A stretch of DNA of 43,206 nucleotides from a virus. The stretch covers positions 1 to 43,206 of the IMG/VR virus record IMGVR_UViG_3300034418_013339, one strand, 5' to 3'. The position numbers and the translations under genes were made by a program. The notes under the pieces were generated by a model. It ran no database searches, was not told where the DNA came from, and saw nothing but the letters and a program-made list of their open reading frames with translations. This document shows positions 4,381 to 35,152 of the stretch, piece by piece (positions within the stretch are counted from its first letter, which is position 1; each line of letters starts with the position of its first letter).

Positions 4381-4383
4381 TAT

Positions 4384-4909: not shown

Positions 4910-4927
4910 GCAAAATAAATAAGTTAT

Positions 4928-5623
4928 ATGGAAAACAAACGTCGTAAAAAGCACGAAGATATTGAGTGCGTTCCTGTAGGAATGGCAAATGGTGTAGCAG
5001 CTGGCTTCCCATTCACAGACAAAGAAAAATGGTCAATGGTAAATGAAGCCGAAGAAGCATTCGGTAAATTCCTTGATGCCCTAAAAGTTGATTGGCGTAA
5101 CGATCCTAATTCTATGGAAACACCCCGTCGCGTAGCTAAAGCTTACGTGTTTGATTTGTTTGCTGGTCGTTATGATAATTTTACTGAAATTACTTCATTC
5201 CCAAGTGATGGTTATGATGGAGTAATTATTGAGCGAAACATCCCTGTTACCTCAATGTGTTCACACCACCACCAAACAATTAGAGGTGTAGTTCATATTG
5301 GTTACATTGCTGGAGCTGATGGTCAAGTAATTGGTTTGTCTAAATTGAATCGTATTGTTGAGCATTTTGGCCGTAGAGGCGCTATCCAAGAACAACTTAC
5401 CTCAGCAATTCATCAAGCTGTAGATAAAGTATGTGAAGGTAACAAAGGTGTTATTGTAACTGTAGTTGCTACTCACAATTGTGTTTCTTGCCGTGGTATC
5501 AAACATCAAGGTGCTGCTATGGTAACTACTAAAGCATCTGGTGTGTTTATGGAAAATGATAACCTAGCACGTAAAGAGTTTTTTGATTCACTAAAAATTA
5601 ATAATGGTCATGTCTCAATTTAA
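4928..5623 (+). CDS. folE: GTP cyclohydrolase I FolE
   Basis: FolE opens GTP to 7,8-dihydroneopterin triphosphate, the first step of both folate and 7-deazaguanine synthesis. The 231-aa protein has NSMETPRRVAKAY, the zinc and active-site segment SMCSHHHQTIRGVVHIGYI, VIGLSKLNRIVEHFGRR, and THNCVSCRGIKHQGAAMVT with the last zinc cysteine. All three zinc ligands (Cys and His of CSHH, Cys of THNC) are present. With QueD, QueE and QueC upstream it completes the route from GTP to preQ0. It has its own promoter, so it may be expressed separately from the que genes. Confidence 0.95.
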   Translation: MENKRRKKHEDIECVPVGMANGVAAGFPFTDKEKWSMVNEAEEAFGKFLDALKVDWRNDPNSMETPRRVAKAYVFDLFAGRYDNFTEITSFPSDGYDGVIIERNIPVTSMCSHHHQTIRGVVHIGYIAGADGQVIGLSKLNRIVEHFGRRGAIQEQLTSAIHQAVDKVCEGNKGVIVTVVATHNCVSCRGIKHQGAAMVTTKASGVFMENDNLARKEFFDSLKINNGHVSI

Positions 5624-6269
5624 AGATTTAATTGAAATCGAGTTACGCAATAGTTTAGGTTTACTTCAATCTCTTAGAGATAGAGACCAACTAAGCTTAA
5701 CCCCAGAAGCTGAATGGGCTTCTATTACAGCAGAACGTATTGCTGTGAAATTTAATGGTGATTATGTCCCATTTGTAAGCGAAGTAGAAACATTTAACGC
5801 CACAATGGGCAAACCTAACAATTATGAACCAGTTATTCCAGAAGAAAACGAGTGGATGTTTGTTTACAATTTCATCCTTGAGGAACTTGAAGAGTACAAA
5901 CATGCTTGTGAAACGGGAGACATTGTTGAGGTACTTGATGCTTTATGTGACATTGCCTACGTTTCTATTGGTAACGGAGCTATGCTACATGGTCTTAAAG
6001 ATAAGCTATGGTCAGCATATCAAGAAGTACAAGCGTCCAATATGTCAAAGGCTTGTCTTAACGAAGAAGAAGCACAAGCGACTGTTGAACTCCGAAGTAA
6101 AGAACAGGGCGAATCTTGTCACTATGAAAAGGTTGGAGACTATTTTATTGTCTATCGAAGCCGTGATCGTAAAGTAATGAAAAATATAAATTACTTTAGA
6201 CCAGATCTTTCCCAGTTTTTTAGTAATGATGAACTAGCTCGACTTAGAAACGAAACATTAGGAATTTGA
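5604..6269 (+). CDS. MazG/PRA-PH-like nucleotide pyrophosphohydrolase
   Basis: A predicted all-alpha NTP pyrophosphohydrolase of 221 aa. Seen: FNATMGKPN, the EExxE metal site within FILEELEEYKHACETGD, and DALCDIAYVSIGNG, the second metal-binding half (DxxxD). Such enzymes clean up non-canonical or excess (d)NTPs or affect alarmone levels. Between folE and the polymerase, control of the nucleotide pool is the reasonable reading. The C-terminal 70 residues hold a separate small region of unknown role. The start at 5604 overlaps folE by 20 nt; an in-frame ATG at 5610 is equally possible. Confidence 0.75.
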   Translation: MVMSQFKDLIEIELRNSLGLLQSLRDRDQLSLTPEAEWASITAERIAVKFNGDYVPFVSEVETFNATMGKPNNYEPVIPEENEWMFVYNFILEELEEYKHACETGDIVEVLDALCDIAYVSIGNGAMLHGLKDKLWSAYQEVQASNMSKACLNEEEAQATVELRSKEQGESCHYEKVGDYFIVYRSRDRKVMKNINYFRPDLSQFFSNDELARLRNETLGI

Positions 6270-8047
6270 TGTACAAAAAATGTTATGCTCAACGTCTCAA
6301 AGAAAATACTTATTTAATTCATCTTTGGGAGGATAGTGGTTATAGTAAAATTGAATGGACTAATCAGGCCTATAGTGAGTGCGACGAATCAGAAGCCACT
6401 CATACAGGTTTGAATGGAGAACCTTTAAAAAAAGTTAGAAATTGGAAACCAGATAACCCAAAACTTCATTTTCATGACATGACTCCTTATCAAAAGTTCC
6501 TTATTGAAAAATATGGAATTAATGATGAACCGTCTAAAACTCATCGTGAGCTATTTTTTGACATTGAGACCGAAATGGGAGACGCTCTTACTGAAGATTA
6601 TATTAAGAGCGCTCCTAAAAAGGTCACCTCAATTGCTTGGTATGATAAACAAGTAGATGAATGGGCTATTCTTATTTTAGATGCTAAAAATCAAATTAAT
6701 CATACTAAAGCAAAAAATAAAGAAATTATCCCTTGCCGTACTGAAGAGGAATTATTGCTTAAATTTCTAGAAAAATTTAGAGAAATTGATCCTGATATTG
6801 TAGTAGGATGGAACAGTGATTACTTCGATATTCCTTATTTATATTATAGAATTTGTAATGTATTAGGTGAGGATACTGCTCGTTACTTATCTCCAATTGG
6901 TTTTGTTAGAGAAACTCCATGGTTTAAAGACCAATATGTTCAAATAGCAGGAGTTGAATCACTTGACTACATGCGCCTACATAAAAAATTCAGTTGGGCT
7001 GATGAACCATCATTTAAATTAGATGCTATTGGAGAAAAATACGCAGGGATAAATAAAATTGAGTATGAAGGTAGTTTAGACAGATTATTTGAAACAGATA
7101 TTAACAAATTTATTCAGTATAACTTTCGAGACGTTGAAATTCTAAAAGTATTAGATGAAAAACTAGAATATCTAGCACTTGTAAAAAACCTATCACATAA
7201 AGGTAAACACAATTATAGTGAAGTTTATGCTAATACTAAAACCCAAGATGGAGCCATTTCAGCTTATTTATTGAGTGAAGGACTTGTACCCCCAGCTAAA
7301 GACCGCAACCCACTTTCCAAGAAAAACTATGCTGGGGGTTACTTGTTCTGCCCTAAAGCCGGTATTTACAACTATATGTTTGATGAGGATTTGACCTCAC
7401 TATATCCTTCAATTATTATGACTGTTAACATTGGTAAAGAAACAATGGTTGGTCGTATTATTGATGCTGATGATAGAAATAATCGTTTAGGTTTAAATGA
7501 TTTACTTGCTAGGGATCCTGAAGAAGAACTTATTATTGAAAATGCTAAACGTAAACGTACTAAAATTAAAGTAGGTGGTTTAGTTAATTTGATTAAAGAT
7601 ATGAAAATGGCCGTTTCAGCAAACGGTGTATTCTTTAGAACAGATAAGGAATCAGTTTTATCTACTATTTTGAAAAAATGGTTTGATGAACGTGTTTTAT
7701 ATAAAAACCAAATGAAAAAAGCATATAAATCAGGTGATAAAGAAGCTGGTGCTGGTTTTCATATGAAACAATATACTATGAAGATTTTGTTGAATAGTTT
7801 GTATGGTGCAACTGCTCTTGGTAGTTTCCGTTATGGTAATGTTATTTTATCTGAAGCAATTACTTTGAGTGGTCAGCGTATTATTCAAGAAAGTGCTTTA
7901 GCAGCAAACCGTCACATGAATAAGGTTATTAAAGGAGAAATTAATTTAAAACTAAAAAAAGATGATTTACAACACAAACCAGGTGAAAGGATGACTGTTG
8001 TTGGTACTAGTTTTAGTTTAGGAACCAGTGAATCTTTAGAAAGATAA
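6269..8047 (+). CDS. DNA polymerase family B, N-terminal part (T4 gp43-like)
   Basis: The first part of a split replicative polymerase, 592 aa. Seen: 3'-5' exonuclease motifs LFFDIETEMG (Exo I, Asp98/Glu100), VVGWNSDYFDIPYLYYR (Exo II) and FRDVEILK (Exo III), then polymerase motif A DLTSLYPSIIM and motif B KILLNSLYGA. The ORF ends about 80 residues after motif B, before motif C. I chose the ATG at 6269 (TGATG overlap) over a TTG three bases upstream. The last 40 residues (from about KGEINLKLKK) have no counterpart in T4 gp43 that I recognise and may be what is left of an inserted element. It should act as a complex with the product of 8047-8976. Confidence 0.93.
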   Translation: MYKKCYAQRLKENTYLIHLWEDSGYSKIEWTNQAYSECDESEATHTGLNGEPLKKVRNWKPDNPKLHFHDMTPYQKFLIEKYGINDEPSKTHRELFFDIETEMGDALTEDYIKSAPKKVTSIAWYDKQVDEWAILILDAKNQINHTKAKNKEIIPCRTEEELLLKFLEKFREIDPDIVVGWNSDYFDIPYLYYRICNVLGEDTARYLSPIGFVRETPWFKDQYVQIAGVESLDYMRLHKKFSWADEPSFKLDAIGEKYAGINKIEYEGSLDRLFETDINKFIQYNFRDVEILKVLDEKLEYLALVKNLSHKGKHNYSEVYANTKTQDGAISAYLLSEGLVPPAKDRNPLSKKNYAGGYLFCPKAGIYNYMFDEDLTSLYPSIIMTVNIGKETMVGRIIDADDRNNRLGLNDLLARDPEEELIIENAKRKRTKIKVGGLVNLIKDMKMAVSANGVFFRTDKESVLSTILKKWFDERVLYKNQMKKAYKSGDKEAGAGFHMKQYTMKILLNSLYGATALGSFRYGNVILSEAITLSGQRIIQESALAANRHMNKVIKGEINLKLKKDDLQHKPGERMTVVGTSFSLGTSESLER

Positions 8048-8976
8048 TGAAACATATAGAAGATACTCCTTGGTGGATTTGTGATCCTGAAGATACTAAT
8101 TATGTAGCATATTCTGATACAGACTCTATCTACATTCATGCTGAACCTCTGTTACGTTATTTGTATCCTGATTTTGATCAAATGTCAAGTGAAGATAAAG
8201 ATGATAAATTAGAGGAAATTGCTCTTAAGTATCAAGACATTATTACTGATTCTTACAATGATTTGGCTAAAAATTGCTTTAATGTTCAAGAACATAGACT
8301 TGAAATGAAGACTGAATGTGTTATTCGTTCAGCTTATTTTAGAGCAACAAGACGTTATGCTCAGTGGATCACTAAGCAGGAAGGTATTACAAAAGAATCA
8401 CTTGATGTTAAAGGTCTTGAATTTAAAAAAGCTAATTTTCCACCTGTATTAGGTAATTTCTTTAAACAAGCATTAATTGATGTATTGAAAGGTGCGAAAC
8501 AATCTGAGATTGATGCTCGCGTTAAGGAGTTTAGACAGCAAATATTAGACGGTAGTATACCGCTTACAACATTAGGTAATCCTACATCTGTTAAAACTCT
8601 TAATAAATATATTGATCGTAAGGCAAGGGCAGGTGAAATGTTTTCCGTGATTGCTAAAGGAGCCCCAGCATCAGTTAAATCTACTATTGTGTATAATGAT
8701 TTGCTTAGGTTTTGGAAATTAAGTAATGATCACAGTTATATTGTTCAAGGTGATAAAGTAAAATGGATTTATTTAAAACCTAATCCTTACCAAATCGAAG
8801 CTATTTCATTCCTAGACTTTGACTTGCCAGAAAAAATTCGTTTATTTATTGAAGAATATGCTGATCGTAAAAAAGTGTTTGAATCAATTTTGTTAAATAA
8901 GTTAGAGGGATTTTATAATGATCTTGGATGGACATTAAATTTAAATCCTTATAAAGAAATGTTTTTTAATTTATAA
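8047..8976 (+). CDS. DNA polymerase family B, C-terminal part (motif C and thumb)
   Basis: The second part of the split polymerase, 309 aa, starting in a TAATG overlap with the first. Seen: YVAYSDTDSIYIHAE with the catalytic DTDS (residues 24-27) of motif C, CVIRSAYFRATRRYAQW and KGLEFKKANFPPVLG (the palm-thumb KxY/KG.E-type segments), and a thumb region to the end. There is no nucleotidyltransferase activity without the first part. The junction looks clean: overlapping stop and start with no frameshift needed. The alternative, a sequencing error merging two frames, would not give a perfectly overlapping stop/start. Confidence 0.92.
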   Translation: MKHIEDTPWWICDPEDTNYVAYSDTDSIYIHAEPLLRYLYPDFDQMSSEDKDDKLEEIALKYQDIITDSYNDLAKNCFNVQEHRLEMKTECVIRSAYFRATRRYAQWITKQEGITKESLDVKGLEFKKANFPPVLGNFFKQALIDVLKGAKQSEIDARVKEFRQQILDGSIPLTTLGNPTSVKTLNKYIDRKARAGEMFSVIAKGAPASVKSTIVYNDLLRFWKLSNDHSYIVQGDKVKWIYLKPNPYQIEAISFLDFDLPEKIRLFIEEYADRKKVFESILLNKLEGFYNDLGWTLNLNPYKEMFFNL

Positions 8977-8977
8977 T

Positions 8978-10606
8978 ATGGCTAAAGTATACGGATTATT
9001 TTTTGGAGCACATGGTTTTTCTACTTCTTTAATTGTAGATGGAAAAATTGAATATGCTGTAGAAGATGAAAGAATTGCCCGAGTAAAATCTGGTTGGAGA
9101 TGGTGGAAACCTCCCTATGATTCTATCAGAGAAATAGAAAAAGCTAGTGGTATTACTCTTGAAGATGCTGATAAAATTATTATAGCAGACCCTACAATGC
9201 ATTATTGTATTCTTCAATTTAACAATGATGAAGTAAATGAAGAATATGCTGCTGATTTAAGAAATCGTTTAATAAAACTTAAATCAAAAGTTAGTTGGAT
9301 GAATCATCATGAAGCCCATGCTTACAGTACTTATTATCTTTCAGGATTTAAAGATAAAACATTAGTGCTTACCTCAGATGGGGGATCTTATGAAGGAGAA
9401 TATGGTACTATAAGTTTAGCAGAAGATGGAGTTATGAAAAAAATTCATTCTATTCCTATTGCAACAGGAGCTTCTATAGCTAATATGTGGTTTTATGCTT
9501 GTACTTATTATGGTTGGAGAGGTACTAAAGACGAAGGTAAAATCATGGGGATGGCTGGGCATGGAAAATATAATGAATATTTGTATAATGCTATAAGTCA
9601 ATGTGTTAATTATAAAGGTAATTTAGAATTTTACCCTGGGGAAAATGGTCCTACTACAGATTTTATTTATAGGCATTTAGAAAAAGAAGGATGGTTTGAA
9701 GGACAAAAAAATAGACAAGATTTTGCTTATAATCTTCAAAAGTATACTGAAGATATTTTTATGAAGTACCTAACAGATGTTGCTAAAAAATATCCTCAAT
9801 ACCGAAGTTTAGCTTTAGCAGGTGGGGTTTTTGCTAATGTAAAACTAAACCAAATAATTAATGAATCAGGTTTATACGATAGAGTGTTTATTACTCCCGC
9901 TATGAGTGATGAAGGTTTAAGTTTAGGAGCTGCTATTAAAGGTTCAATAGATATAGGTGATTGGGATGGAGTTAAACAATTAGAAACTTCGTTTTTAGGA
10001 TTAGAGTATTCCCAAGAAGAAATTGATCAACAGGCCTCTAGATTATCTGTAACATCATCACCATTAGATTATAAAGAAGTAGGTAAACTAATTCATGAAG
10101 GTAATATTATTGCTTTATTTAATGGTAAATTTGAATTTGGTCCTAGAGCATTAGGTGCTCGTTCAGTAATGGTAAGACCTACAGATGCTGAAACCCATGA
10201 AGTGCTTAATACAAGATTAGAACGACATGAAATTATGCCATTTGCTCCCTTTATAATGAGTGAATATGCTGATGTTGTATTTGATGTTCCTCAATCTCAA
10301 CATACTGCTGAATTTATGACTATGTGTTATACAGTTCGTTCTGAATGGGCAGATAAAATCCCAGCAGTAATCCACCGAGTAGATAATACAGGGCGCCCTC
10401 AAATTGTATACAAACATAAAAACCCTGTATTTTGGAATATATTAAATGAGTATCATAAACTTTCAGGTATCCCTGTTATGCTTAATACTTCATTTAATGG
10501 ACACGGAGAACCTATTGTAAATACTCCTGAACAAGCATTTGCTCACCTTACAAAAGGTACAATTGATTATTTGATAGCTGGAAATAAAATTTATAAAAAA
10601 GTATAA
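8978..10606 (+). CDS. NodU/TobZ/CmcH-family O-carbamoyltransferase
   Basis: Transfers a carbamoyl group from carbamoyl phosphate, through a carbamoyl-adenylate, to a hydroxyl group (on sugars or antibiotics in the known family members). Seen in the 542 aa: N-terminal GAHGFSTSLIVDGKIEYAVEDERIARVKSG, the metal motif MNHHEAHA, TSDGGSYEGE, ALAGGVFANVKLN, and the C-terminal Sua5-like half with GKFEFGPRALGARS and PVMLNTSFNGHGEPI. Full length. Placed directly after the polymerase and before the clamp. The acceptor is unknown: a modified DNA base, a nucleotide or a phage or host glycan are all possible. Confidence 0.93.
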   Translation: MAKVYGLFFGAHGFSTSLIVDGKIEYAVEDERIARVKSGWRWWKPPYDSIREIEKASGITLEDADKIIIADPTMHYCILQFNNDEVNEEYAADLRNRLIKLKSKVSWMNHHEAHAYSTYYLSGFKDKTLVLTSDGGSYEGEYGTISLAEDGVMKKIHSIPIATGASIANMWFYACTYYGWRGTKDEGKIMGMAGHGKYNEYLYNAISQCVNYKGNLEFYPGENGPTTDFIYRHLEKEGWFEGQKNRQDFAYNLQKYTEDIFMKYLTDVAKKYPQYRSLALAGGVFANVKLNQIINESGLYDRVFITPAMSDEGLSLGAAIKGSIDIGDWDGVKQLETSFLGLEYSQEEIDQQASRLSVTSSPLDYKEVGKLIHEGNIIALFNGKFEFGPRALGARSVMVRPTDAETHEVLNTRLERHEIMPFAPFIMSEYADVVFDVPQSQHTAEFMTMCYTVRSEWADKIPAVIHRVDNTGRPQIVYKHKNPVFWNILNEYHKLSGIPVMLNTSFNGHGEPIVNTPEQAFAHLTKGTIDYLIAGNKIYKKV

Positions 10607-24663: not shown

Positions 24664-25286
24664 TGAAAATAAGTTATGCCCTTACAGTTTGTAATGAATT
24701 TTTAGAGATACAACGTTTAATTGATTTTCTCTTAAAACATAAAAGAGATCAAGATGAAGTTGTTATAGTATTTGATTATAAAAATGGTAGTGAATCTGTA
24801 GAAGAATACCTTAGATCCAAATCAGTTAATGATTCTAAATTTAGATGGTATCCTTTTCCATTTGATGGAGACTTCTCAGCGTTAAAAAATTATCTTACTA
24901 AAAATTGTGTTGGAGATTATATTTTTCAAATTGATGCTGATGAAGTTCCTAGTTTAGATTTAATGCAGTATTTACCAGCTATTTTAGAAGCAAATAATGT
25001 TGATGCTTTAAGAGTACCTCGTGTGAATACTGTAGAAGGTTTAACTCAAGAACATATTCAGAAATGGAGATGGGCTGTTGATAGTAGGGGTAGAGTAAAT
25101 TGGCCTGATCCTCAATGGCGCATTTATAAAAATAATGGCAAAATTCAATGGAAAAATAAAGTTCACGAAGTGTTGGATGGGTATGAAACTCATAGTATTT
25201 TACCATTAGAAGAAGAATTTGCTTTAGAACACCATAAAGATATTAAACGACAAGAAAAACAAAACAATTATTACGATACATTATGA
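24663..25286 (+). CDS. Glycosyltransferase family 2-like
   Basis: A 207-aa GT-A protein. Seen: ISYALTVCNEFLEIQRLIDF, VVIVFDYKNGSESV, FQIDADEVPSLDL with the DAD(E) metal motif, and WRIYKNNGKIQWKNKVHEVL. It is like short bacterial GT2 enzymes of the LPS-core kind. TAATG overlap upstream and ATGA overlap downstream. Confidence 0.83.
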   Translation: MKISYALTVCNEFLEIQRLIDFLLKHKRDQDEVVIVFDYKNGSESVEEYLRSKSVNDSKFRWYPFPFDGDFSALKNYLTKNCVGDYIFQIDADEVPSLDLMQYLPAILEANNVDALRVPRVNTVEGLTQEHIQKWRWAVDSRGRVNWPDPQWRIYKNNGKIQWKNKVHEVLDGYETHSILPLEEEFALEHHKDIKRQEKQNNYYDTL

Positions 25287-25681
25287 GAAAATACTTACCA
25301 ACTCTTAGCGAATTAGTAGATCGCTTATCAATTGTTCAACTTAAAGAAGTATTCATTCCAGAACATAAAGATGAATATGCTGAAGAAATTGAAGCCATTG
25401 TTCATGATATCCAAATGCTATTAGATGAACAAGATGGTAAAGTAACAGCAGAAACTATCCGTGCTATCGTTGTATTATCGCAAATGAATCTTCATATATG
25501 GCATAACGAATCTAATTATCGTAAGGGTATTAAAGACGGTAATAACCTGGAATTAACGCATGGTTTGAATGGTATCCGTAACACAGCCAAAAACCGAATC
25601 CAGGAAGTAGTAGGTGGTAGAAAAGATTATAAAATTGATTGTTTAGCTGCTGAATTCAAAGACTGGGAAATTTCATGGTAA
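25283..25681 (+). CDS. Helical protein of unknown function in the glycan island
   Basis: A 132-aa protein: LPTLSELVDRLSIVQLKEVF, then a long helical region with LHIWHNESNYRKGIKDGNN and LNGIRNTAKNRIQEVV. It resembles small proteins that sit among surface-glycan genes, but I cannot name the family. Slightly richer in G+C than the genes around it. ATGA overlap upstream, 7-nt overlap downstream. Confidence 0.6.
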   Translation: MRKYLPTLSELVDRLSIVQLKEVFIPEHKDEYAEEIEAIVHDIQMLLDEQDGKVTAETIRAIVVLSQMNLHIWHNESNYRKGIKDGNNLELTHGLNGIRNTAKNRIQEVVGGRKDYKIDCLAAEFKDWEISW

Positions 25682-26544
25682 TTAAACATAAATTTTTTAA
25701 TCCAAGAACTTTAAAATACTTTGAAGAAAGGTATAAGGATCTTCCTATTACTTTGTTTTGGGATTATGTTCCTCAAAGCAGAGAAGAATTAAATATTAAT
25801 CCTTATAATATCTTTTTAGCTCATGAACCTAATGATTTTTTTGGAATTCAAGGTTGGATAGCAGCGAATCATCAAGCATTTAATGCTGTTCTTTCTTGGG
25901 ATAAAAACATTTTAGCTAAATGTACTAATGGTATTGAATTTTATTGTGGGTGGATGTTTGATTCAGAATTCTTTAATCCTACAGAAAAAACATTTGAAGT
26001 TTCTTTTTTAAGTGGGGTTAAAGATATTACTAGAGGTCATCAATTTAGACAATATGTTTTAACCTTAGAAAATTTAATTAAAATACCTAAAAAGTGGTAT
26101 AAAGTTTTAGATGATTTTGATCACGAAAAAAATGTAAGACCAGGGTACACTGAATATTCTAAAGATTTATCTCATATTCCTGATGGGGTTAATCCTGAAA
26201 CCTATGGTAAACAATTTTTATTTGATAGTATGTTCCACGTTGCTATTGAAAATGTGCAATATGATAATTGGTATACAGAAAAAATCCAACAAGCTTTTCT
26301 TAATAAAACTATTCCTGTATATTGGGGGTGTACTAATTTAGAACAAGTTGGATATGATCCTAGGGGAGTAATTACCTTTAATACTGGAGAAGAATTAATT
26401 AATATTCTAAACCGATTAACCCCAGAAGAATATACTAAAAGATTACCTTTTGTAGAATATAATTATGAAGTAGCAAAACAAGATACTTTAAAAAATAAAT
26501 TAAGTTACATTTTAGATCAAATTAAAGTTTTAAATAATTTATGA
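25675..26544 (+). CDS. GT10-like glycosyltransferase (fucosyltransferase type)
   Basis: A 289-aa protein. The C-terminal half has FHVAIENVQYDNWYTEKIQQ followed by AFLNKTIPVYWGC (about 183-215), closely matching the GT10 donor-binding signature (F-x-I/V-A-x-E-N, Y-x-T-E-K, P-V-Y-x-G). GT10 enzymes use GDP-fucose. This window can make other GDP-deoxysugars, so the donor may be one of them (inference). The N-terminal half is poorly conserved, as usual for acceptor domains. Confidence 0.78.
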   Translation: MVIKHKFFNPRTLKYFEERYKDLPITLFWDYVPQSREELNINPYNIFLAHEPNDFFGIQGWIAANHQAFNAVLSWDKNILAKCTNGIEFYCGWMFDSEFFNPTEKTFEVSFLSGVKDITRGHQFRQYVLTLENLIKIPKKWYKVLDDFDHEKNVRPGYTEYSKDLSHIPDGVNPETYGKQFLFDSMFHVAIENVQYDNWYTEKIQQAFLNKTIPVYWGCTNLEQVGYDPRGVITFNTGEELINILNRLTPEEYTKRLPFVEYNYEVAKQDTLKNKLSYILDQIKVLNNL

Positions 26545-27017
26545 TTTTCCCCGAAGTAAAAATTTACGAACCAGATGCCTTTGAAGACCATAGAGGCGAA
26601 CTTTATACTTTATTTAAACAAGAAGAACACGAGTTAGTTTTTAATCACGATAAAGTATCAATTTCCCACAAAAATGTTTTAAGGGGTTTACACGGAGATA
26701 ATAAATCGTGGAAACATATTTCTTGTTTAGCAGGTGAAATTTATCTAGTGGTAGTAGATTATAGACCCAAATCTGAAAATTTTATGAAATGGGATTCTAC
26801 TATGATTTCATCTAAAAATAGAAGATCAGTATTAGTTCCTCCTGGATTTTTAAATGGGCATTTAATTTTAAGTGATGAAGCAACATTTTTCTACAAATGG
26901 TCTTATCCTGGCAAATACCCTGATGTTGATGATCAAATTTCTTTAAAATGGGATAACCCAAGATTAGGAATTAATTGGCCTATTTCTAATCCTATTTTAT
27001 CTAAGCGTGATAGTTAA
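26541..27017 (+). CDS. RmlC-like cupin (dTDP-4-keto-sugar 3,5-epimerase family)
   Basis: A 158-aa protein. Seen: FEDHRGELYTLF, NVLRGLHGD with the catalytic-type His, AGEIYLVVVDYRP, VPPGFLNGHLILSDEA and FYKWSYPGKYPD with the Tyr found in RmlC active sites. A single-base (C3 or C5) epimerase or a 3,4-ketoisomerase relative is possible. It probably works on a 4-keto-deoxysugar from the GMD-like enzyme. ATGA overlap upstream; 36 nt gap after it. Confidence 0.8.
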   Translation: MIFPEVKIYEPDAFEDHRGELYTLFKQEEHELVFNHDKVSISHKNVLRGLHGDNKSWKHISCLAGEIYLVVVDYRPKSENFMKWDSTMISSKNRRSVLVPPGFLNGHLILSDEATFFYKWSYPGKYPDVDDQISLKWDNPRLGINWPISNPILSKRDS

Positions 27018-27053
27018 AAATTTCTTTATTATATTAAACAAAAACAATAACAT

Positions 27054-27593
27054 ATGAAAAAAGCACTTATTCTTACTTATTCTGGTTATCAAGACCACGA
27101 ATTAATTTATCCTTATCATAGTTTGAAGGAAAATGGTTTTGATGTTACTTTAGTAGCGAATCAATTAGGAAGATTTTATGGTATTTTAGGAACACATATG
27201 GTGTGTGATGTTCTTACTACTGATTTTGAGGATTCTAGCAACAGAGAAAAATATCTTGAATATGATCTATTAGTAATTCCTGGAGGGGTTAAAGCACTAG
27301 AAAAACTTCGTTTAGAAAAAGGTGTTGTTGAGTTTGTTCGTGAATGGGATGATTTAGACAAAACTATTTTCTCAGTATGTAACGGAGCCCAACTAATGAT
27401 TACAGCTGGTATCTTAAAAGGTAGAACAGTATCAGGATACTATGCTATTGAAGCTGATATTAATAATGCAGGTGCTACTTACCATAGAGGCCCAGTTGTG
27501 GTAGATGGTAATATTATTTCTTGCCCTCATTATGATTTTATGGGTGAGTGGATGAGAACCGGATATGAAGTATTTGAACAAAGAGGAAAATGA
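27054..27593 (+). CDS. DJ-1/PfpI superfamily protein
   Basis: A 179-aa protein with KKALILTYSGYQDHELIYPY at the start, LLVIPGGVKALEKL (with the Glu/Gly oxyanion loop region) and the nucleophile elbow FSVCNGAQLMITAGIL (Cys at about 108). A hydrolase, chaperone or glyoxalase-like deglycase role is possible. In a sugar-nucleotide cluster a role against reactive carbonyls is conceivable. ATGA overlap with the cupin gene. Confidence 0.82.
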   Translation: MKKALILTYSGYQDHELIYPYHSLKENGFDVTLVANQLGRFYGILGTHMVCDVLTTDFEDSSNREKYLEYDLLVIPGGVKALEKLRLEKGVVEFVREWDDLDKTIFSVCNGAQLMITAGILKGRTVSGYYAIEADINNAGATYHRGPVVVDGNIISCPHYDFMGEWMRTGYEVFEQRGK

Positions 27594-28252
27594 GTTACGA
27601 ATCAACAATAGTAAAAAAACCTTGGGGTTACGAATATCTTGCTTATGAGAATGAGCACGTAGCCCTCTGGTTTCTTTATATCAAACACACACATTCAACC
27701 TCATTACATTGTCACCCTAAAAAAACTACTGGATTAACTTTATTGGATGGTCAAGCAGAAGTATCATTCTTTAACCATACCAATAAACTAAATCCAGGTA
27801 ATAAAGTGATGATTAGAAAAGGATTGTTTCACTCTACAAAAGCTACTTCAGAAAAAGGAGCTTATGTTTTTGAAATTGAAACTCCTGTAGATAAACAAGA
27901 TTTAGTTCGTTTTAGAGATAGCTACGGGCGTGAAGGTAAACCTTATGAAGATAGTACTCATGAAATGCCTAAAGCTGAAGATTGTCTTTGGATCACAGAT
28001 GAACCTAAAGATTACGATTTTGCCAATTGTGTTCTTTCTATAAAGAATATTACTGATGTTTCTATGTTTGAAGAAATTGATAATAAACATAATGTAATGT
28101 TCCTTAAAGGTGGTTTACAAGCAGATTATGGTCAAAATGTAGCAGGGCCTGGTGATGTAGTTGCTTCAAGTGTTATCAAACAACTAATTGAAGTATTCCA
28201 TAAAGTAGACCCAGAAACTTTAGTAATGATTATTAAACCAAATGAACAGTAA
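27590..28252 (+). CDS. Cupin protein, mannose-6-phosphate isomerase-like
   Basis: A 220-aa protein. Seen: VKKPWGYEYLAYEN (8-21), SLHCHPKKTTGLTLLDGQAE with the metal histidines, and NPGNKVMIRKGLFHSTKA with the second half of the cupin motif; the C-terminal third looks like a degenerate second cupin repeat. Related proteins are sugar-phosphate isomerases or sugar-binding regulators. Linked by ATGA and an 11-nt overlap to the HAD gene. Confidence 0.72.
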   Translation: MSYESTIVKKPWGYEYLAYENEHVALWFLYIKHTHSTSLHCHPKKTTGLTLLDGQAEVSFFNHTNKLNPGNKVMIRKGLFHSTKATSEKGAYVFEIETPVDKQDLVRFRDSYGREGKPYEDSTHEMPKAEDCLWITDEPKDYDFANCVLSIKNITDVSMFEEIDNKHNVMFLKGGLQADYGQNVAGPGDVVASSVIKQLIEVFHKVDPETLVMIIKPNEQ

Positions 28253-28631
28253 TAATTTCCCTCCAGGTTTTGAGAATGAAGCTAATAATTTAGCTATTGA
28301 TTTTGATGGAGTAATCCATAATATGGATAAAGGTTTTCACGATGGAACTTGTTATGGAGATCCTTTACCTGGTTCTTTAGAAGCGATTCGTGAATTATCT
28401 AAAAAATATCGTATTATTATTTTCACAGCAAAGGCAAAACCTAATCGTCCATTAGTAAATGGAAAAACTGGGGTTCAATTAGTAGAAGAATGGTTAGACA
28501 AATATGGTATTTTAGATTGTGTTGTCGAAATCACGGCTGAAAAACCTAGAGCTATTCTTTATATTGATGATAATGGTTACAGACATACTGATTGGGAATC
28601 AACATTAAATTTTTTAGAAAGTTATGAGTAA
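28242..28631 (+). CDS. HAD-superfamily phosphatase-like protein
   Basis: A 129-aa protein with motif I LAIDFDGVIHNMDKG (17-31), motif II IIIFTAKAKP and motif IV LYIDDNGYRHTDW; the Lys of motif III lies in EKPRAIL. A small capless HAD hydrolase, likely acting on a sugar phosphate or nucleotide. It overlaps the E1 alpha gene by 8 nt. Confidence 0.8.
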   Translation: MNSNNFPPGFENEANNLAIDFDGVIHNMDKGFHDGTCYGDPLPGSLEAIRELSKKYRIIIFTAKAKPNRPLVNGKTGVQLVEEWLDKYGILDCVVEITAEKPRAILYIDDNGYRHTDWESTLNFLESYE

Positions 28632-29457
28632 TTTTAGATTAGAAGTATTTAAAAAAGCTTCATTTTGTAGACATTTTGAAAATCAGGTTTACAAAGTAGC
28701 CCAAGATAAACATATTAAATTTCCTTTTTATCTGTCAGCAGGTCAAGAATTTATTCCTGCTACCCTTTATACTTTTTTAGAAAAAAAAGGAGTCGACACC
28801 AATGTTTTTATTCAGCATAGAGGGCATTCTCATTATTTAAGTAAAGGAGCTGACCCTGTTCAACTAATTGATGAATTATTAGGTCGTAAAAGTGGTTGTG
28901 CTAATGGGATGGGGGGTTCAGCTTCAATCCATTCAATTGAAAAAGATATTTTTGGACATGACGGGTTAATGGGTAGTCAAGTACCTATTGCTGTAGGTCA
29001 CGCTTACCAAACTCGCAAACCTACTATTGTGGTAATGGGTGATGCTTCAGCTGAAGAAGATTATGTTTTAGGAGCATTAGGTTGGGCATCTACTAAAAAA
29101 TTACCTGTTTTGTTTGTTGTTGAAGATAATAATTTATCTATCTTAACTGAAAAAAGAGTAAGACGTAATTGGGAAATGGAAGATGTAGCTAAATCTTTTA
29201 ATATGGAAGCTTTTACAGTTGATGATAATCCTGTAATGTTAAGAAATGTTTTAGAAAATTGGGATTTTGAAAGTCCTATGTTAGTAAATGTCAATACTAT
29301 TAGAAAATACTGGCACGCTGGAGCTGGAACTGATGGAGATTATTTTGACAGATATGAAGATGAAAAATCTATTTTAGGTACTGAAGCAGAACAAATTGAT
29401 ATTGAAAATAAATCACTAGTAGAAAAGTTATGGCAACAACAGTTAGAGATACAATAA
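28624..29457 (+). CDS. TPP-dependent dehydrogenase E1 alpha-like subunit
   Basis: A 277-aa protein, shorter than PDH E1 alpha (about 320-400 aa). Seen: YLSAGQEFIPATLYTFLEKK, IQHRGHSHYLSKGADP, GCANGMGGSASIH, and the thiamine-diphosphate motif MGDASAEEDYVLGALGWAST ending VVEDNN (139-170), with GDA instead of GDG. No E2 or E3 genes occur, so it is not a full oxidative complex. With the beta partner it probably makes an enamine from a 2-oxoacid and transfers a two-carbon unit to a sugar, like the avilamycin AviB1/AviB2 pair (inference). Confidence 0.85.
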   Translation: MSNFRLEVFKKASFCRHFENQVYKVAQDKHIKFPFYLSAGQEFIPATLYTFLEKKGVDTNVFIQHRGHSHYLSKGADPVQLIDELLGRKSGCANGMGGSASIHSIEKDIFGHDGLMGSQVPIAVGHAYQTRKPTIVVMGDASAEEDYVLGALGWASTKKLPVLFVVEDNNLSILTEKRVRRNWEMEDVAKSFNMEAFTVDDNPVMLRNVLENWDFESPMLVNVNTIRKYWHAGAGTDGDYFDRYEDEKSILGTEAEQIDIENKSLVEKLWQQQLEIQ

Positions 29458-30344
29458 AAGAAATTACACGAAAACATCTTACAGAAGATTTGGGCAAATG
29501 TTATGGTCAATGTCTTACAGCAGTAGGATGGGTAGGTGGAACTTTACCGGAAATGTATGAAGAAGATGGTATGGTTGAATTTTCAATGGCTGATGTTGCT
29601 GGGGGATCTATTGCTACTGGTATTGCTCTAGCTGGAGGTAGACCACTTTATGTAGTACGTTATCAAGGATTTCAATGGTATAATTTAGTATCAGTAGTTA
29701 ATTATGCTGCTAAATCTAAAGAAATTTGGGGTCGTCCTTGTCCTATTTTTGTTAGAAGTATTGCTATGGAAGGTGGAGTTGGTCCTGTAGCTGGTTCTTC
29801 ACACCATTCACTAGCTCAAAGAATGCCAGGTATTAAAGTATTAGCTCCTATGACTCCTGGTGAATACCAATTTGCTTATGATTCTTTTATGGCTGATGAT
29901 GATCCTTATTACATTTCAGAACATAGAAAATCTTATGACAATGATAAAGAATTACCTGATGTATTACATGATACCAAAGTAGATTTTACTTGGTTTCCAA
30001 TTTCTATTACTCGTTTAGAAATGGAAAAAGTAATGGAATTAGCAAACAAAGAAAATATTAAAATAAATATTTTCCACCAGTTATGGATTAAACCTTTTGA
30101 TGTACTTCCTGAGTGGACTGAGTCTCTTAAAAATTCTCGTTTTGGTGGTTTAGTTACTGATGATGATTATGTAGAAGGAGCCGCAAGTAGTATTGCTAAT
30201 GAATTAAGTTTGGCTTCTAGAAAAAATGTATGGACATTAGGCCTAGAACCACGTACAGCAGGTTTTCACCCAACAGTAGATAATCTGCCCCCAAGTGCTG
30301 AAAAAATAGTTGAAAAATTAAAACAAATTAAATATGGGATTTAA
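29430..30344 (+). CDS. TPP-dependent dehydrogenase E1 beta-like subunit
   Basis: A 304-aa transketolase-like subunit. Seen: FSMADVAGGSIATGIALAGG (51-70), RPLYVVRYQGFQWY, GPVAGSSHHSLAQRMPGIKV and LAPMTPGEYQFAYDSF, then a C-terminal transketolase domain. The Glu that normally activates the TPP aminopyrimidine (TPIxE) appears as Asp55 (FSMAD), a conservative change. It overlaps the alpha gene by 28 nt, which points to a heterodimer translated together. Confidence 0.85.
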   Translation: MATTVRDTIKEITRKHLTEDLGKCYGQCLTAVGWVGGTLPEMYEEDGMVEFSMADVAGGSIATGIALAGGRPLYVVRYQGFQWYNLVSVVNYAAKSKEIWGRPCPIFVRSIAMEGGVGPVAGSSHHSLAQRMPGIKVLAPMTPGEYQFAYDSFMADDDPYYISEHRKSYDNDKELPDVLHDTKVDFTWFPISITRLEMEKVMELANKENIKINIFHQLWIKPFDVLPEWTESLKNSRFGGLVTDDDYVEGAASSIANELSLASRKNVWTLGLEPRTAGFHPTVDNLPPSAEKIVEKLKQIKYGI

Positions 30345-31497
30345 ATGGCCTCTTATTAATGACAATATTACCCAAGGTGATAGAGAAATCTTAGCTGATT
30401 TTTGTCTAAATGGTGAACGTTTCACAAATGGACCTAAAGTTAAAGAATTTGAAAAAATCTGGTCTGAATGGTTAGGTGTTAAACACTCTGTAATGGTTAA
30501 TTCTGGAGCATCTGGAAATTATATTTCAATTGCTATGGTAAAAGAATTAATGGGTGAGGGAGAAGTTATTGTACCCCCTATTGGTTGGGTTAGCGACATA
30601 TCTTCAGTTGCTCAATTAGGTATGACACCTGTATTTGTAGATGTTTCACTTGATGATTTTAATATTACAGCTGAAAATATTAAAAATGCTATTACTAAAG
30701 ATACTAAAGCAATTGTATTAGTTCATACACTTGGGTTCCCAGCAATTAATGATGAAATTATTCAAATTGCTAAGAATAATAATATTATGTTAATTGAAGA
30801 CTGTTGTGAGGCACATGGTGCTACTTATAATGGTAAGCGTGTAGGTTCATTCGGAGATATCTCATTGTTCTCATTTTATTTTGGTCACCACATTACTACC
30901 ATTGAGGGTGGAACTGTTTGTGTAAATGATGACAAGCTTTATGATTTAGCTAAACTATTCCGTTCACACGGAATGACTCGTGAAGCATCTCAGGAATTAC
31001 AACGTGATTATCAATTAATGCACCCTGACCTAAACCCATTGTTTACTTTCGCTGTAGCTGGGTTTAATATGCGTTCAACTGAATTAAACGCTGTACTTGG
31101 TATTGAACAAATGAAGCGTTTAGACTACAATATAGAACGTAGACGTGAAAATCTTGACATTTGGTTAGATACTCTTGATAGTTCTAAGTTTATGACTTTC
31201 TTTAAAAGACAAGGAAATAGTAACTTTGCTTTACCTCTTATGATGCAAGGTGCTACTCGAGATAAATTGAAAGATGTTTGTGATATCTTAGAAGCTGAAG
31301 GTGTAGAATACCGTTTAGGTACAGCTGGCGGTGGTAGCCAAGCACGCCAACCTTATTTGAAAAAATTTCCTCATAGAATTAATGGTACTTTAGCTCAAGC
31401 AGACTATATTCACGATAATGCTTTGTATGTAGGTAACCATACCGATTTAACTGAGGAACAAATTGTTAATCTTTGTAAAAAATTAAATAATGTTTGA
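30334..31497 (+). CDS. ColD-like PLP-dependent sugar 3-dehydratase (DegT/AHBA fold)
   Basis: A 387-aa protein of the DegT/DnrJ/EryC1 fold. Seen: MVNSGASGNYISIAMVKEL, VIVPPIGWVSDISS, IEDCCEAHGATYNGKRVGSF (154-173) and LFSFYFGHHITTIEGGTV (178-195). The PLP-binding Lys of aminotransferases is replaced by a His185-His186 pair, as in ColD (GDP-4-keto-6-deoxymannose 3-dehydratase) and E1/RfbH enzymes (AHHITMGEGG). The YVGNH near the end also matches ColD. It would remove the C3 hydroxyl using PMP, giving a 3,6-dideoxy-4-keto sugar. I therefore do not call it an aminotransferase. Confidence 0.85.
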   Translation: MGFKWPLINDNITQGDREILADFCLNGERFTNGPKVKEFEKIWSEWLGVKHSVMVNSGASGNYISIAMVKELMGEGEVIVPPIGWVSDISSVAQLGMTPVFVDVSLDDFNITAENIKNAITKDTKAIVLVHTLGFPAINDEIIQIAKNNNIMLIEDCCEAHGATYNGKRVGSFGDISLFSFYFGHHITTIEGGTVCVNDDKLYDLAKLFRSHGMTREASQELQRDYQLMHPDLNPLFTFAVAGFNMRSTELNAVLGIEQMKRLDYNIERRRENLDIWLDTLDSSKFMTFFKRQGNSNFALPLMMQGATRDKLKDVCDILEAEGVEYRLGTAGGGSQARQPYLKKFPHRINGTLAQADYIHDNALYVGNHTDLTEEQIVNLCKKLNNV

Positions 31498-32452
31498 TAA
31501 CCAAAAAGTTTTAGTAACTGGGGGGGCTGGAATGATCGGCCGTCAGTTAGTTGATTTGTTAGTAGAAAGAGGAGCTCAAGTAACAGTAGCTGATTTAAAT
31601 CAACCCACAGATTTACCTGAAGGTGTTAATTTTGTCCAAGCAAACTTACTTTATTTTGATCAGTGTGAAAATATTTGCTCTGGAATGGATTATGTATTTA
31701 ATCTTGTAGGTATTAAATGTTCCCCTAAAGTAACTATGGAACAACCAGCTGATATTATGGGTCCTATGATGCAGTTTAATACTAACATGCTTGAAGCAGC
31801 TATGAAAGCTAATGTAAAATGGTATTTGTATACTAGTACTGTTGGTGTTTATACTCCTGCTGAAGTGTTTTACGAAGATGATGTTTGGAAAGGATCTCCA
31901 TCACCTAATGATTGGTATGGTGGTTGGGCTAAACGTATGGGAGAATTGCAATGTGAAGCTTATGCTAAACAAAGAGGTGAAGGTATTTGTTCAATCGTAA
32001 GACCAGCTAATGTGTATGGTCCTTATGATAACTTTGATTTAAAAAATGCTATGGTTGTTCCTTCACTTATCCGTAAAGCCCATGAAAATGAAATTTTAGA
32101 TGTGTGGGGTGATGGTTCTCCAATTCGTGATTTTATTCATGCTAAAGATGTTGCTCGTGGTATGATTTTTGCTGTTGAAAATAAAATCACTGAACCATTG
32201 AATTTAGGTTCGGGTACTGGAGTAACTATTAAAGAGTTAGCTGAAACTGTAGCTAATTACTTTGATAAATCTATTCAATGGTCACCCGAAAAACCATCAG
32301 GTGATGCTCGTAGAATTTTTAGTATGGAACGAGCTAATTCATATGGTTTCTATCCTGAGGTTTCTATTAAAGAAGGCGTGGAGAGCACAATTGAGTGGTT
32401 TATATTGAACCAAGATAAAATTGAGAAAAAATTTAATGCATTAAATAAATAA
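31490..32452 (+). CDS. NAD-dependent epimerase/dehydratase (extended SDR), GDP-fucose-synthase-like
   Basis: A 320-aa SDR. Seen: VLVTGGAGMIGRQLVDLL (8-25), LYTSTVGVY, IVRPANVYGPYDNFDLKNAM and VWGDGSPIRDFIHAKDVARG. The NVYGPYDNFDL and PSLIRKAHE pieces resemble GDP-L-fucose synthase. The catalytic YxxxK is odd: WYGGWAKRMGE (142-152) puts Tyr143 five, not four, residues before Lys148. It may reduce the keto side chain or C4 of the new sugar (inference). Confidence 0.82.
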   Translation: MFDNQKVLVTGGAGMIGRQLVDLLVERGAQVTVADLNQPTDLPEGVNFVQANLLYFDQCENICSGMDYVFNLVGIKCSPKVTMEQPADIMGPMMQFNTNMLEAAMKANVKWYLYTSTVGVYTPAEVFYEDDVWKGSPSPNDWYGGWAKRMGELQCEAYAKQRGEGICSIVRPANVYGPYDNFDLKNAMVVPSLIRKAHENEILDVWGDGSPIRDFIHAKDVARGMIFAVENKITEPLNLGSGTGVTIKELAETVANYFDKSIQWSPEKPSGDARRIFSMERANSYGFYPEVSIKEGVESTIEWFILNQDKIEKKFNALNK

Positions 32453-32454
32453 TT

Positions 32455-33414
32455 ATGGGTTTTTATAAAGGAAAAAATGTTTTAGTAACTGGGGCAGCCG
32501 GAATTACAGGTCATGCTGCTGTTAAAAGATTATTAGCTGAAGGAGCTAATGTTAGAGCAACTGTATATCAAAATAGAGGTCTTGATATTGAAGATCATCC
32601 AAATCTAGAAGTAGTCCAATGTGACTTAATGAAGCACGAAGATTGTATGCGTGTTCTAGAAGGTATGGATGTTTGTTTCAATTTTGTGGCGTTTATTAGA
32701 GGTGCTAAAGGTCAAACTGAATATAGTAATGCTCTTGATTTAGTACGAAATAATTTGTTTACTTCAATTAATATGATTGATGCAGCTGTTCGTAGTAAAT
32801 TAGATAGATTTGGTTTTGTTGGTAGTTCAACTATGTATCCTGATGTATCTCATGCTGTAAATGAAGATGAAGCATTTGATTCAAATCCTCATAAATTGTA
32901 TAGAGGTGTGGGTTGGATGAAACGTTACGTAGAAAAAGTAATTGAATACTACCAAGATATTTCAGAAACTAAGTTTGGTATGGTTCGCACAACTGCGATT
33001 TATGGTCCTCATGATGCTTTTAATGAAAATGGGCATGCTATTCCCCAATTGATTATGAAAGCAGATAGTGGAATGAATCCATTTGAAGTTTGGGGTGATG
33101 GTTCTCAAATGCGTGATTTTATTTATGTAGATGATGTTGTTGATGCTGTAATGACAGTTGTTGAAAAAGCACCTACAGGACGTCCTTATAATGCTGCTAC
33201 AGGTAAAGGTACTACAGTAACTGAATTGGTAGAAACTATTACGGACATTTATGGTTACGAACCTGAATTCAATTATGATGTTACTAAACCTACTATGATT
33301 CCTATTCGTTTGGTTGATGTATCAAGAATTAAGGATGAATTAGGTTGGGAAGCAAAACACGACCTTAAAACAGGACTAGAAAAAACTATTGAGTGGTATA
33401 AAAATAACAAATAA
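32455..33414 (+). CDS. NAD-dependent epimerase/dehydratase (extended SDR)
   Basis: A 319-aa SDR paralogous to the one before it. Seen: NVLVTGAAGITGHAAVKRLL, FVGSSTMYPDV, VRTTAIYGPHDAFNENGHAI and VWGDGSQMRDFIYVDDVVDA. The catalytic region YRGVGWMKRYVEK (149-161) has Lys156, but Val at the YxxxK Tyr position. It shares the GWxKR core with its neighbour. Substrate unknown; it belongs to the same pathway by position (TAATG overlap with the next gene). Confidence 0.82.
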   Translation: MGFYKGKNVLVTGAAGITGHAAVKRLLAEGANVRATVYQNRGLDIEDHPNLEVVQCDLMKHEDCMRVLEGMDVCFNFVAFIRGAKGQTEYSNALDLVRNNLFTSINMIDAAVRSKLDRFGFVGSSTMYPDVSHAVNEDEAFDSNPHKLYRGVGWMKRYVEKVIEYYQDISETKFGMVRTTAIYGPHDAFNENGHAIPQLIMKADSGMNPFEVWGDGSQMRDFIYVDDVVDAVMTVVEKAPTGRPYNAATGKGTTVTELVETITDIYGYEPEFNYDVTKPTMIPIRLVDVSRIKDELGWEAKHDLKTGLEKTIEWYKNNK

Positions 33415-34424
33415 TGGTTAATGCTTTCATTACAGGTATAACAGGAATGGTCGGCTCACATTTGACCGACTTCCTGTTAGAAAATACAGATTGGAAAATT
33501 TACGGACTTGCTCGTTGGAATGATTCATTAGAGAATATTGAGCATTTAGCAGAAGAAATTAATAAAAAAGAACGTATTGAAATTATTTATGGTGATTTAA
33601 ATGATTTAGCATCTCTTATTACAGCTGTAGATAAAGCAAAACCCGATTATGTGTTTCATTTAGCTGCTCAATCATACCCACAAACTAGTTTTGATGCGCC
33701 TATAGAAACGTTACAAACTAATATATTGGGCACTGCGAATTTATTAGAGGCAATGCGTAAAAGCGTTTATAATCGCTCTATAATTCACGTATGTGCCTCA
33801 AGTGAAGTATTTGGTCGAGTACCTAGAACTAAACTTCCTATTAACGAGGAATGTTCATTCCATCCAGCTTCACCTTATGCTATATCTAAAGTTGGAACTG
33901 ATTTAGTAGGTCGTTATTATGCTGAAGCATATGGAATGACTATTATGACTACTAGAATGTTTACCCATACTGGTCCTAGACGTGGAGATGTATTTTCAGA
34001 ATCAACATTTGCTAAACAAATTGCTATGATTGAAGCTGGTTTACAAGAACCTAAAATTTATGTAGGCAATTTGGAATCACTTAGAACATATGCTGATGTT
34101 AGAGATGCTGTAAAAGCATATTATATGTTAGTTACTAAAAACCCAATTAGAGGGGAATATTATAATATTGGTGGTGATTATACTTGTACTATTAAAGAAA
34201 TGTTAAATTATCTTATTAGTCAATCCACAGTAAAAAATATTGAAATTGTAACAGATCCAGATCGTTTACGTCCTATAGATGCTGATTTACAAATCCCAGA
34301 TACTACAAAATTCCAATCTCATACTGGTTGGGAACCTGAATATACTTTCGAACAGACTATGGATGATTTGTTAAATTATTGGAGAGATAAAGTAAAATCC
34401 GGAAGGAAATTTTTAAGACGATGA
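33414..34424 (+). CDS. gmd: GDP-mannose 4,6-dehydratase-like SDR
   Basis: A 336-aa protein that would form GDP-4-keto-6-deoxymannose from GDP-mannose. Seen: AFITGITGMVGSHLTDFLLE (GxxGxxG), VFHLAAQSYPQTSFDAP, CASSEVFGRVP, SPYAISKVGTD with an intact YxxxK, and FTHTGPRRGDVFSESTFAKQ, characteristic of GMD and related RmD enzymes. The first 70 nt hold a 13-bp hairpin. It is the logical first enzyme for the ColD-like and TPP enzymes upstream. Confidence 0.85.
   Translation: MVNAFITGITGMVGSHLTDFLLENTDWKIYGLARWNDSLENIEHLAEEINKKERIEIIYGDLNDLASLITAVDKAKPDYVFHLAAQSYPQTSFDAPIETLQTNILGTANLLEAMRKSVYNRSIIHVCASSEVFGRVPRTKLPINEECSFHPASPYAISKVGTDLVGRYYAEAYGMTIMTTRMFTHTGPRRGDVFSESTFAKQIAMIEAGLQEPKIYVGNLESLRTYADVRDAVKAYYMLVTKNPIRGEYYNIGGDYTCTIKEMLNYLISQSTVKNIEIVTDPDRLRPIDADLQIPDTTKFQSHTGWEPEYTFEQTMDDLLNYWRDKVKSGRKFLRR
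33440..33478 (+). repeat. Long intragenic hairpin at the start of the gmd-like gene
   Basis: AACAGGAA plus GTCGG pairs with CCGAC plus TTCCTGTT: 13 bp with a 2-nt bulge (TG) and an 11-nt loop. It begins 26 nt after the gmd-like ATG. Position near the start suggests an effect on translation or mRNA processing. Confidence 0.6.
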
Positions 34425-35152
34425 GAATATTAGTTATAGGAGATAGTTGTACTGACGTTTTTAGATATGGTAAGGTAACTCGAATTGCCCCTGAAGCCCC
34501 AGTCCCTATTATTGTACCTGAACGTGAAACCGAAAACCCCGGAATGGCGGGTAATGTAGTAGCTAATCTAAAAGCATTAGGTGCTGAGGTAGAATTTATT
34601 ACTAATAAAACTAAAATTCGTAAAGTAAGATACGTTTGTTCTAAGTATAATCATTTACTTTTAAGAGTAGATGAAAATGATAAGTGTGAACGATTTGATA
34701 TTGTACCTTTCAAAACCAAAGAATTTGATGCCGTTATTATTTCAGATTACTGTAAAGGGTTTTTAGAAGAAGAAGATATTCAAATGATATCTAGAAGTTT
34801 TGAATGTCCCGTATTCTTAGATACTAAAAAAATATTAGGTGAGTGGGCTTTGTCTATTGATTTTATTAAAATTAATTTTCACGAATACGAACGTAATAAA
34901 GAAGTTCTAGCAAATAATTCTTATTTAAATAATAAAACTATTGTAACTAGGGGTAAATACGGCTGTGATTATCAAGGTAAAAATTACCCTACAATAGACG
35001 TTCCTGTGAAAGATGTCTCAGGAGCAGGTGATACATTTCTTTCAGGTTTAGTAGTAGAATATGCTCGTTCTAAAGATATAGATAAAGCAATTAAATTTGC
35101 TCAAGATTGCACAACTATAGTAATTCAAAAATCAGGAGTATCAACTGTTTAA
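34421..35152 (+). CDS. HldE/RfaE-like sugar kinase (PfkB family), shortened
   Basis: A 243-aa kinase resembling the kinase domain of heptose-7-phosphate kinase (about 320 aa). Seen: LVIGDSCTDVFRYGKVTRIA then PEAPVPIIV, NPGMAGNVVANLKALGAEVE, ISDYCKGFLEEEDI and DVSGAGDTFLSGLVVEYA, the PfkB catalytic signature with its Asp. About 50 residues usually found between GAxVxLV and the KTR/LLRLD region are missing. Possible roles: activating a sugar 7- or 1-phosphate for the glycan. No nucleotidyltransferase domain is fused. Confidence 0.8.
   Translation: MRILVIGDSCTDVFRYGKVTRIAPEAPVPIIVPERETENPGMAGNVVANLKALGAEVEFITNKTKIRKVRYVCSKYNHLLLRVDENDKCERFDIVPFKTKEFDAVIISDYCKGFLEEEDIQMISRSFECPVFLDTKKILGEWALSIDFIKINFHEYERNKEVLANNSYLNNKTIVTRGKYGCDYQGKNYPTIDVPVKDVSGAGDTFLSGLVVEYARSKDIDKAIKFAQDCTTIVIQKSGVSTV

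Follow-up and report, generated by a model that had tools for sequence, protein, structure and literature searches.

A sugar island of T4-like phages with a predicted route to C-branched GDP-deoxyheptoses

A four-enzyme route to GDP-3,6-dideoxyheptoses has been proven in Campylobacter jejuni (HS:5/HS:11), and proceeds through a GDP-heptose 4,6-dehydratase, a pyridoxal phosphate (PLP)-dependent C3-dehydratase, an epimerase and a reductase (PMC10440746). Thiamine enzymes, both E1-type and YerE-like, use keto-sugars and 2-oxo acids to make C-branched sugars (PMC12247030; PMC4753412); C-branched sugars from such enzymes are known in bacterial lipopolysaccharides and antibiotics, not in viruses. 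Here we analyse an island of sugar genes, all on one strand and densely packed, in a 43-kb IMG/VR virus record (IMGVR_UViG_3300034418_013339; its 43,206 nucleotides are the window throughout). We predict that this island probably converts GDP-heptose into GDP-3,6-dideoxy-4-keto-heptose with a branch derived from a 2-oxo acid, and regard it as a new viral form of a known pathway type, possibly containing a new branching module. The island holds candidates for all four C. jejuni activities; that route, however, is cellular rather than viral, and its description includes no thiamine enzyme, DJ-1 or cupin step (PMC10440746). Literature searches for phage branched sugars with thiamine, and for phage nucleotide-sugar or heptose auxiliary genes, found nothing, and no close relative of either E1 subunit was found among 50,697 deposited phage records, in agreement with the initial annotation of this DNA, which knew of no described phage version. 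The genes of the island are the following:

25675..26544 (+): GT10-like glycosyltransferase, candidate GDP-sugar transferase (PF00852, 25.4 bits)
26541..27017 (+): RmlC-like epimerase (dTDP_sugar_isom; PF00908, 132 bits); best matches, Campylobacter GDP-4-keto-heptose 3- and 3,5-epimerases
27054..27593 (+): DJ-1/PfpI-family protein (PF01965, 120 bits)
27590..28252 (+): cupin with a phosphomannose-isomerase/CapF-like N-terminal barrel (AlphaFold model, pLDDT 92)
28242..28631 (+): small HAD-like phosphatase (PHROG 1238, 52 bits; DxD and DDN motifs read in the sequence)
28624..29457 (+): E1 alpha-like subunit, dependent on thiamine diphosphate (ThDP) (E1_dh; PF00676, 69 bits; QHRGHS, GDASAEED and EDNN motifs)
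29430..30344 (+): E1 beta-like subunit (Transket_pyr; pyruvate dehydrogenase (PDH) E1 beta, 73 bits), Asp55 for the catalytic Glu
30334..31497 (+): ColD-like PLP 3-dehydratase (DegT; ColD (2gms), 205 bits), His for the Schiff-base Lys
31490..32452 (+): Fcl-like short-chain dehydrogenase/reductase (SDR; Epimerase-type), candidate reductase (GDP-fucose synthetase, 126 bits)
32455..33414 (+): SDR (Epimerase-type), GDP-mannose-3,5-epimerase/Fcl-like; many relatives lack it or have only a distant match
33414..34424 (+): GDP-heptose 4,6-dehydratase-like SDR (GDP_Man_Dehyd; 7us5, 376 bits)
34421..35152 (+): shortened PfkB kinase, HldE/RfaE domain I type (TIGR02198, 134.6 bits, cut-off 345)

Every open reading frame (ORF) named in the initial annotation was intact by ORF check and profile searches, and the families it had given, including the RmlC-like, cupin and HAD-like proteins and the two SDRs, were all in place on the same strand; it had not named the DJ-1/PfpI gene at 27054 or the HldE-like kinase at 34421. 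The HAD-like protein had no Pfam match, and matched PHROG 1238 only.

The pathway would start from GDP-heptose, which the phage probably takes from its host and the island would remodel. The SDR at 33414 would form GDP-6-deoxy-4-keto-heptose, from which the ColD-like enzyme at 30334 would remove the C3 hydroxyl to give GDP-3,6-dideoxy-4-keto-heptose, and the RmlC-like protein at 26541 may epimerise C5. The E1 pair (28624 and 29430) would decarboxylate a 2-oxo acid on ThDP and add the acyl unit to the C4 ketone, yielding a C-branched deoxyheptose with a tertiary alcohol. The SDRs, cupin, DJ-1 and HAD proteins could modify the branch or provide its donor, and the sugar would be attached by glycosyltransferases of the phage, such as the GT10-like protein at 25675. 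We infer all substrates, the order in which the reactions run, which donor gives the branch and how long this is, the product, and what the sugar is attached to.

Directly observed are the genes present and the families they fall into, their catalytic motifs and conservation, their patterns of co-occurrence, and the exchange with YerE-like enzymes. The initial annotation had described an E1 alpha/beta pair without E2 or E3, and searches for E2 (PF00198) and E3 (PF02852), both of which gave matches in control genomes, indeed found neither in the window nor in 12 related phage contigs (13 records); an oxidative 2-oxo-acid dehydrogenase complex was rejected on this basis. Co-occurrence was scored with hidden Markov models (HMMs) built for this analysis, in scans that took the dehydratase, DJ-1 or E1 beta as anchor, E1b2 being called with a small HMM; the loci counted are related, not independent, and Fisher values are only descriptive. 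E1 alpha is encoded in all 47 of the E1 beta-anchored viral loci that have 8 kb or more of flank on both sides, and ColD, DJ-1 and the cupin are each found in 46, the last two being the genes most strictly bound to the pair. A 4,6-dehydratase is present in 18 of these loci and an enzyme of the Cj1427 type in 29, never together. With 6 kb required instead (49 loci, 47 of them with ColD), the GMD type was found in 18 and the Cj1427 type in 30, with both in none and neither in one. Judged by these counts, the E1 pair follows whichever enzyme makes the 4-ketone.

The thiamine enzyme itself is variable. Among 51 DJ-1-anchored viral loci, 35 contain the E1 pair, 15 a single-chain YerE/JanthE-like enzyme, one both and none neither; the corresponding figures with one locus per 90%-identity group are 22, 8, 1 and 0 (31 non-redundant loci). 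The phage single-chain enzyme has three decarboxylase-superfamily domains and scores 371 bits with the acetolactate synthase model, under its cut-off of 538; its best solved match is 8rph (360 bits, versus 240 for acetolactate synthase), which is JanthE (PMC12188165), and the unusual CDG motif of JanthE is found in copies from three loci (L026, L210 and L265). Genes of this kind lie in DJ-1/cupin/HAD clusters, for instance at L203:11566-13350 (+), and also in L187, L192, L195, L204-L206, L209, L223 and L249. The 53 dehydratase-anchored viral loci comprise 12 with the E1 pair, 35 with a mini E1 pair, 6 with neither and none with both. The mini pair (for instance, L100:4999-6245 (+)) is formed by an alpha of about 200 and a beta of about 180 amino acids, the latter without the C-terminal transketolase domain and with the canonical Glu. 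Ten of the 35 mini-pair loci lack ColD, indicating that the thiamine step is not strictly tied to 3-deoxygenation. Within a single pathway, then, thiamine enzymes of three kinds seem to replace one another.

The YerE-like lyases that branch CDP-3,6-dideoxy-4-keto-glucose (yersiniose; JanthE, ErwE) are ThDP enzymes acting on a 3,6-dideoxy-4-keto nucleotide sugar (PMC12247030), as predicted for the phage pair, and in related phages a JanthE-like enzyme stands in for an absent E1 pair. They differ in being single-chain members of the decarboxylase superfamily, whereas the window has an E1 alpha/beta pair in a GDP-heptose context, with additional DJ-1, cupin and HAD genes. The lack of E2 and E3, the position beside ColD and the swap with a YerE/JanthE-like enzyme together favour carboligation onto a 4-keto-3-deoxy sugar, and the C-C branching proposed in the initial annotation is thus indirectly supported, but not on its colitose sugar base (see below). 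A broader reading, which we offer only tentatively, is that aquatic T4-like phages possess an undescribed class of C-branched nucleotide heptoses made by interchangeable thiamine enzymes (Asp-type E1 pair, mini E1 pair and JanthE-like), in which Asp-type E1, DJ-1 and cupin would be a new module for branching, with a donor other than simple pyruvate.

These patterns also bear on the possibility that the product is an unbranched GDP-3,6-dideoxyheptose as in Campylobacter. The E1 pair, DJ-1 and cupin would then form a module of their own, whose product, an acyloin or a small acyl or keto-acid substituent, would decorate another site of the glycan. We consider this unlikely. The dehydratase, C3-dehydratase, epimerase and reductase suffice alone (PMC10440746), and many dehydratase loci lack the closely knit set of DJ-1, cupin and E1; however, ColD accompanies the pair in nearly every viral locus (46/47), the pair is replaced by a YerE/JanthE-like enzyme within the same neighbourhood, and most other dehydratase loci (35/53) contain a different E1-type pair.

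The E1 pair resembles PDH E1. E1 alpha matches PDH E1 alpha with 80 bits by profile, and the predicted model of E1 beta finds its best structural match in PDH E1 beta (Z 31.9 over 297 residues, 2.4 A), ahead of DXS (Z about 27) and transketolase (Z about 24). Asp55 of E1 beta aligns to the ThDP-activating catalytic Glu of PDH E1, and Asp occupies this site in 128/128 homologues; a different E1 pair with the canonical Glu occurs in some of the same clusters. With adjacent alpha and beta genes and no E2 or E3, the pair of the window resembles the alphaKADH2 pairs AviB1/AviB2, Pau11/Pau12 and KbDH-alpha/beta (PMC4753412, PMC12247030), which are among its nearest described counterparts. These too are thiamine-dependent alpha/beta pairs in deoxy-sugar clusters, but they belong to antibiotic clusters; the Asp that replaces the catalytic Glu in E1 beta of the window may be a further difference, AviB and KbDH being compared by description only. 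Plasmid searches retrieved only distant E1 pairs (about 22–31% identity), among them one with the canonical Glu that adjoins a ColD-like gene in Azospirillum pAZO_p6. Phage and bacterial sequences cluster strongly in the E1 beta tree, with at least three changes between them needed; of the bacterial branches, a gammaproteobacterial clade labelled Thiothrix lies nearest to one phage group. In a deltaproteobacterial metagenome-assembled genome, a single ORF of 569 amino acids (L089:8042-9748) may combine the alpha and beta regions of E1.

Less likely still, the pair could be a transketolase-like enzyme split in two that works earlier in the pathway, making a heptulose or another precursor with a lengthened chain instead of branching the nucleotide sugar. 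Its bacterial relatives (55 loci, 33 with full flanks) do adjoin the sedoheptulose-7-phosphate/heptose-phosphate genes GmhA, HddA and HddC, and the E1 beta fold is common to transketolase and DXS, but sequence and structure are nearest to PDH E1. Moreover, host cells normally have their own transketolase. In some bacterial clusters a class I aminotransferase and a LeuA-like synthase lie directly before the pair (L079, L086 and L093; the synthase only in L075), which fits a 2-oxo-acid donor, perhaps a dedicated one.

As for the sugar, the dehydratase, the epimerase, the adjoining kinase and the bacterial neighbourhoods agree in pointing to a heptose (GDP-D-glycero-D-manno-heptose) as the most likely substrate, rather than a hexose, as judged from sequence. 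The SDR at 33414 scores 376 bits with the GDP-D-glycero-D-manno-heptose 4,6-dehydratase 7us5 of Campylobacter versus 152 with Escherichia coli GMD, and the RmlC-like protein 142–146 bits with the C. jejuni heptose epimerases 7ang/7an4/7m14/8db5 versus 92 with dTDP RmlC. The gene right after the dehydratase is the shortened HldE-type kinase, well under the TIGR02198 cut-off. Neighbours of the bacterial E1 pairs include HddA-like (31/33 loci with full flanks), HddC/GmhB-like and GmhA-like proteins, as well as a Cj1427-like SDR (26/33) matching 6vo6 with 299 bits. The table label of 6vo6 is putative sugar-nucleotide epimerase/dehydratase, and we take it to be Cj1427, a GDP-heptose 4-dehydrogenase. 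The isolated Synechococcus cyanophages Bellamy and SynMITS9220M01 (L324 and L325) carry a dehydratase 53–54% identical, beside a kinase and a nucleotidyltransferase, and SynMITS9220M01 additionally has annotated genes for a heptose kinase and a phosphoheptose isomerase. The "GMD-like 4,6-dehydratase" of the initial annotation is a GMD-family SDR, but its proposed specificity for GDP-mannose is not borne out. The route put forward there, from GDP-mannose to GDP-4-keto-3,6-dideoxymannose as in colitose synthesis, followed by a C2 branch, was rejected as the least probable of all: no solved structure matches the PLP enzyme better than ColD, the ColD-like 3-dehydratase and GMD-family SDR resemble those of the GDP-colitose route, and every step is known for hexoses, but the dehydratase, much nearer to the heptose enzyme, reaches only 189 bits with the curated gmd model (TIGR01472, cut-off 415), and the epimerase, the kinase and the neighbourhoods indicate a heptose.

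The protein at 30334 is closer to ColD (205 bits) than to the CDP-sugar E1/RfbH type (166 bits). Its active site is SFYFGHHITTIEGG, in which the first His replaces Lys. This His is found at the Schiff-base position in nearly all relatives with a readable motif, while the second varies (HH, HQ or HI), so that, of the His-His initially noted, the first residue is the conserved one.

The island genes are real, whole and under purifying selection. Low median dN/dS values for each core gene tested (0.11–0.24, pairwise against related phages) indicate that the core genes are maintained and, together with the 35 viral loci that encode E1 alpha relatives and repeat much of the gene set, that this set is not due to chance. 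Host contamination was dismissed because a T4-type Gp23 capsid gene is present in 10/14 larger related contigs (from the E1 alpha scan and later scans) and because the replication genes of the window are of phage type, with a clamp-loader-type AAA ATPase and a family B DNA polymerase divided between two ORFs. The carrier is a T4-like phage of aquatic bacteria.

With respect to the accessory genes, Cys109 and Glu16 of the DJ-1 protein are invariant in the alignment. The cupin model matches the CapF cupin domain (Z 14.8) and phosphomannose isomerase (Z 14.4), and some bacteria have the cupin fused to a sugar SDR; no function was assigned from its structure, which many cupins match about equally. 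The SDRs at 31490 and 32455 are both Fcl-like, and the role of C4-reductase is not assignable to either from sequence. B12-binding radical SAM proteins occur in 28/47 E1 beta-anchored viral loci (for instance, L291:6595-8118 and L313:6594-8099), and possibly perform a further C-methylation or skeletal step.

Several points weigh against a branched deoxyheptose. The pathway is predicted from genes, and the kinship of the loci makes Fisher values overstate significance. The invariant Asp at the site of the catalytic Glu might point to a different chemistry. Neither DJ-1 nor cupin fits into the published C-branching routes compared, and the two suggest an additional step; with C4 branched, the two Fcl-like SDRs are not both required for C4 reduction. 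In bacterial loci ColD is near the E1 pair in just 25/33 cases, and the 4-keto-forming enzyme is usually of the Cj1427 type. Finally, the window, a fragment, shows no GmhA, HddA or HddC, and neither GmhA (0/14) nor HddC over its cut-off (0/14) was found in the larger phage contigs, so that the supply of GDP-heptose by the host has to be assumed.

If a branched deoxyheptose is indeed made, phages would encode unusually elaborate sugar chemistry, perhaps for coating themselves or for changing the host surface during infection. For biochemists, the Asp-type E1 pair would represent a new enzyme group, with an invariant Asp for the catalytic Glu and DJ-1 and cupin as partners, that may form tertiary alcohols; in Pelagibacteraceae, SAR116 and many uncultured phyla, this group would be tied to GDP-heptoses.

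Other genes of the window are also worth mentioning. Positions 25283-25681 encode a short protein of no assigned family that shows 79–92% identity across phages and is close to sugar genes in most loci. Genes for QueC, a PTPS-family protein, a radical SAM protein and GTP cyclohydrolase I (1055-5623) suggest 7-deazaguanine modification of the phage DNA. The split family B DNA polymerase occupies two adjacent ORFs (6266-8976), followed by a NodU-like carbamoyltransferase (8978-10606), another possible sugar-decorating enzyme.

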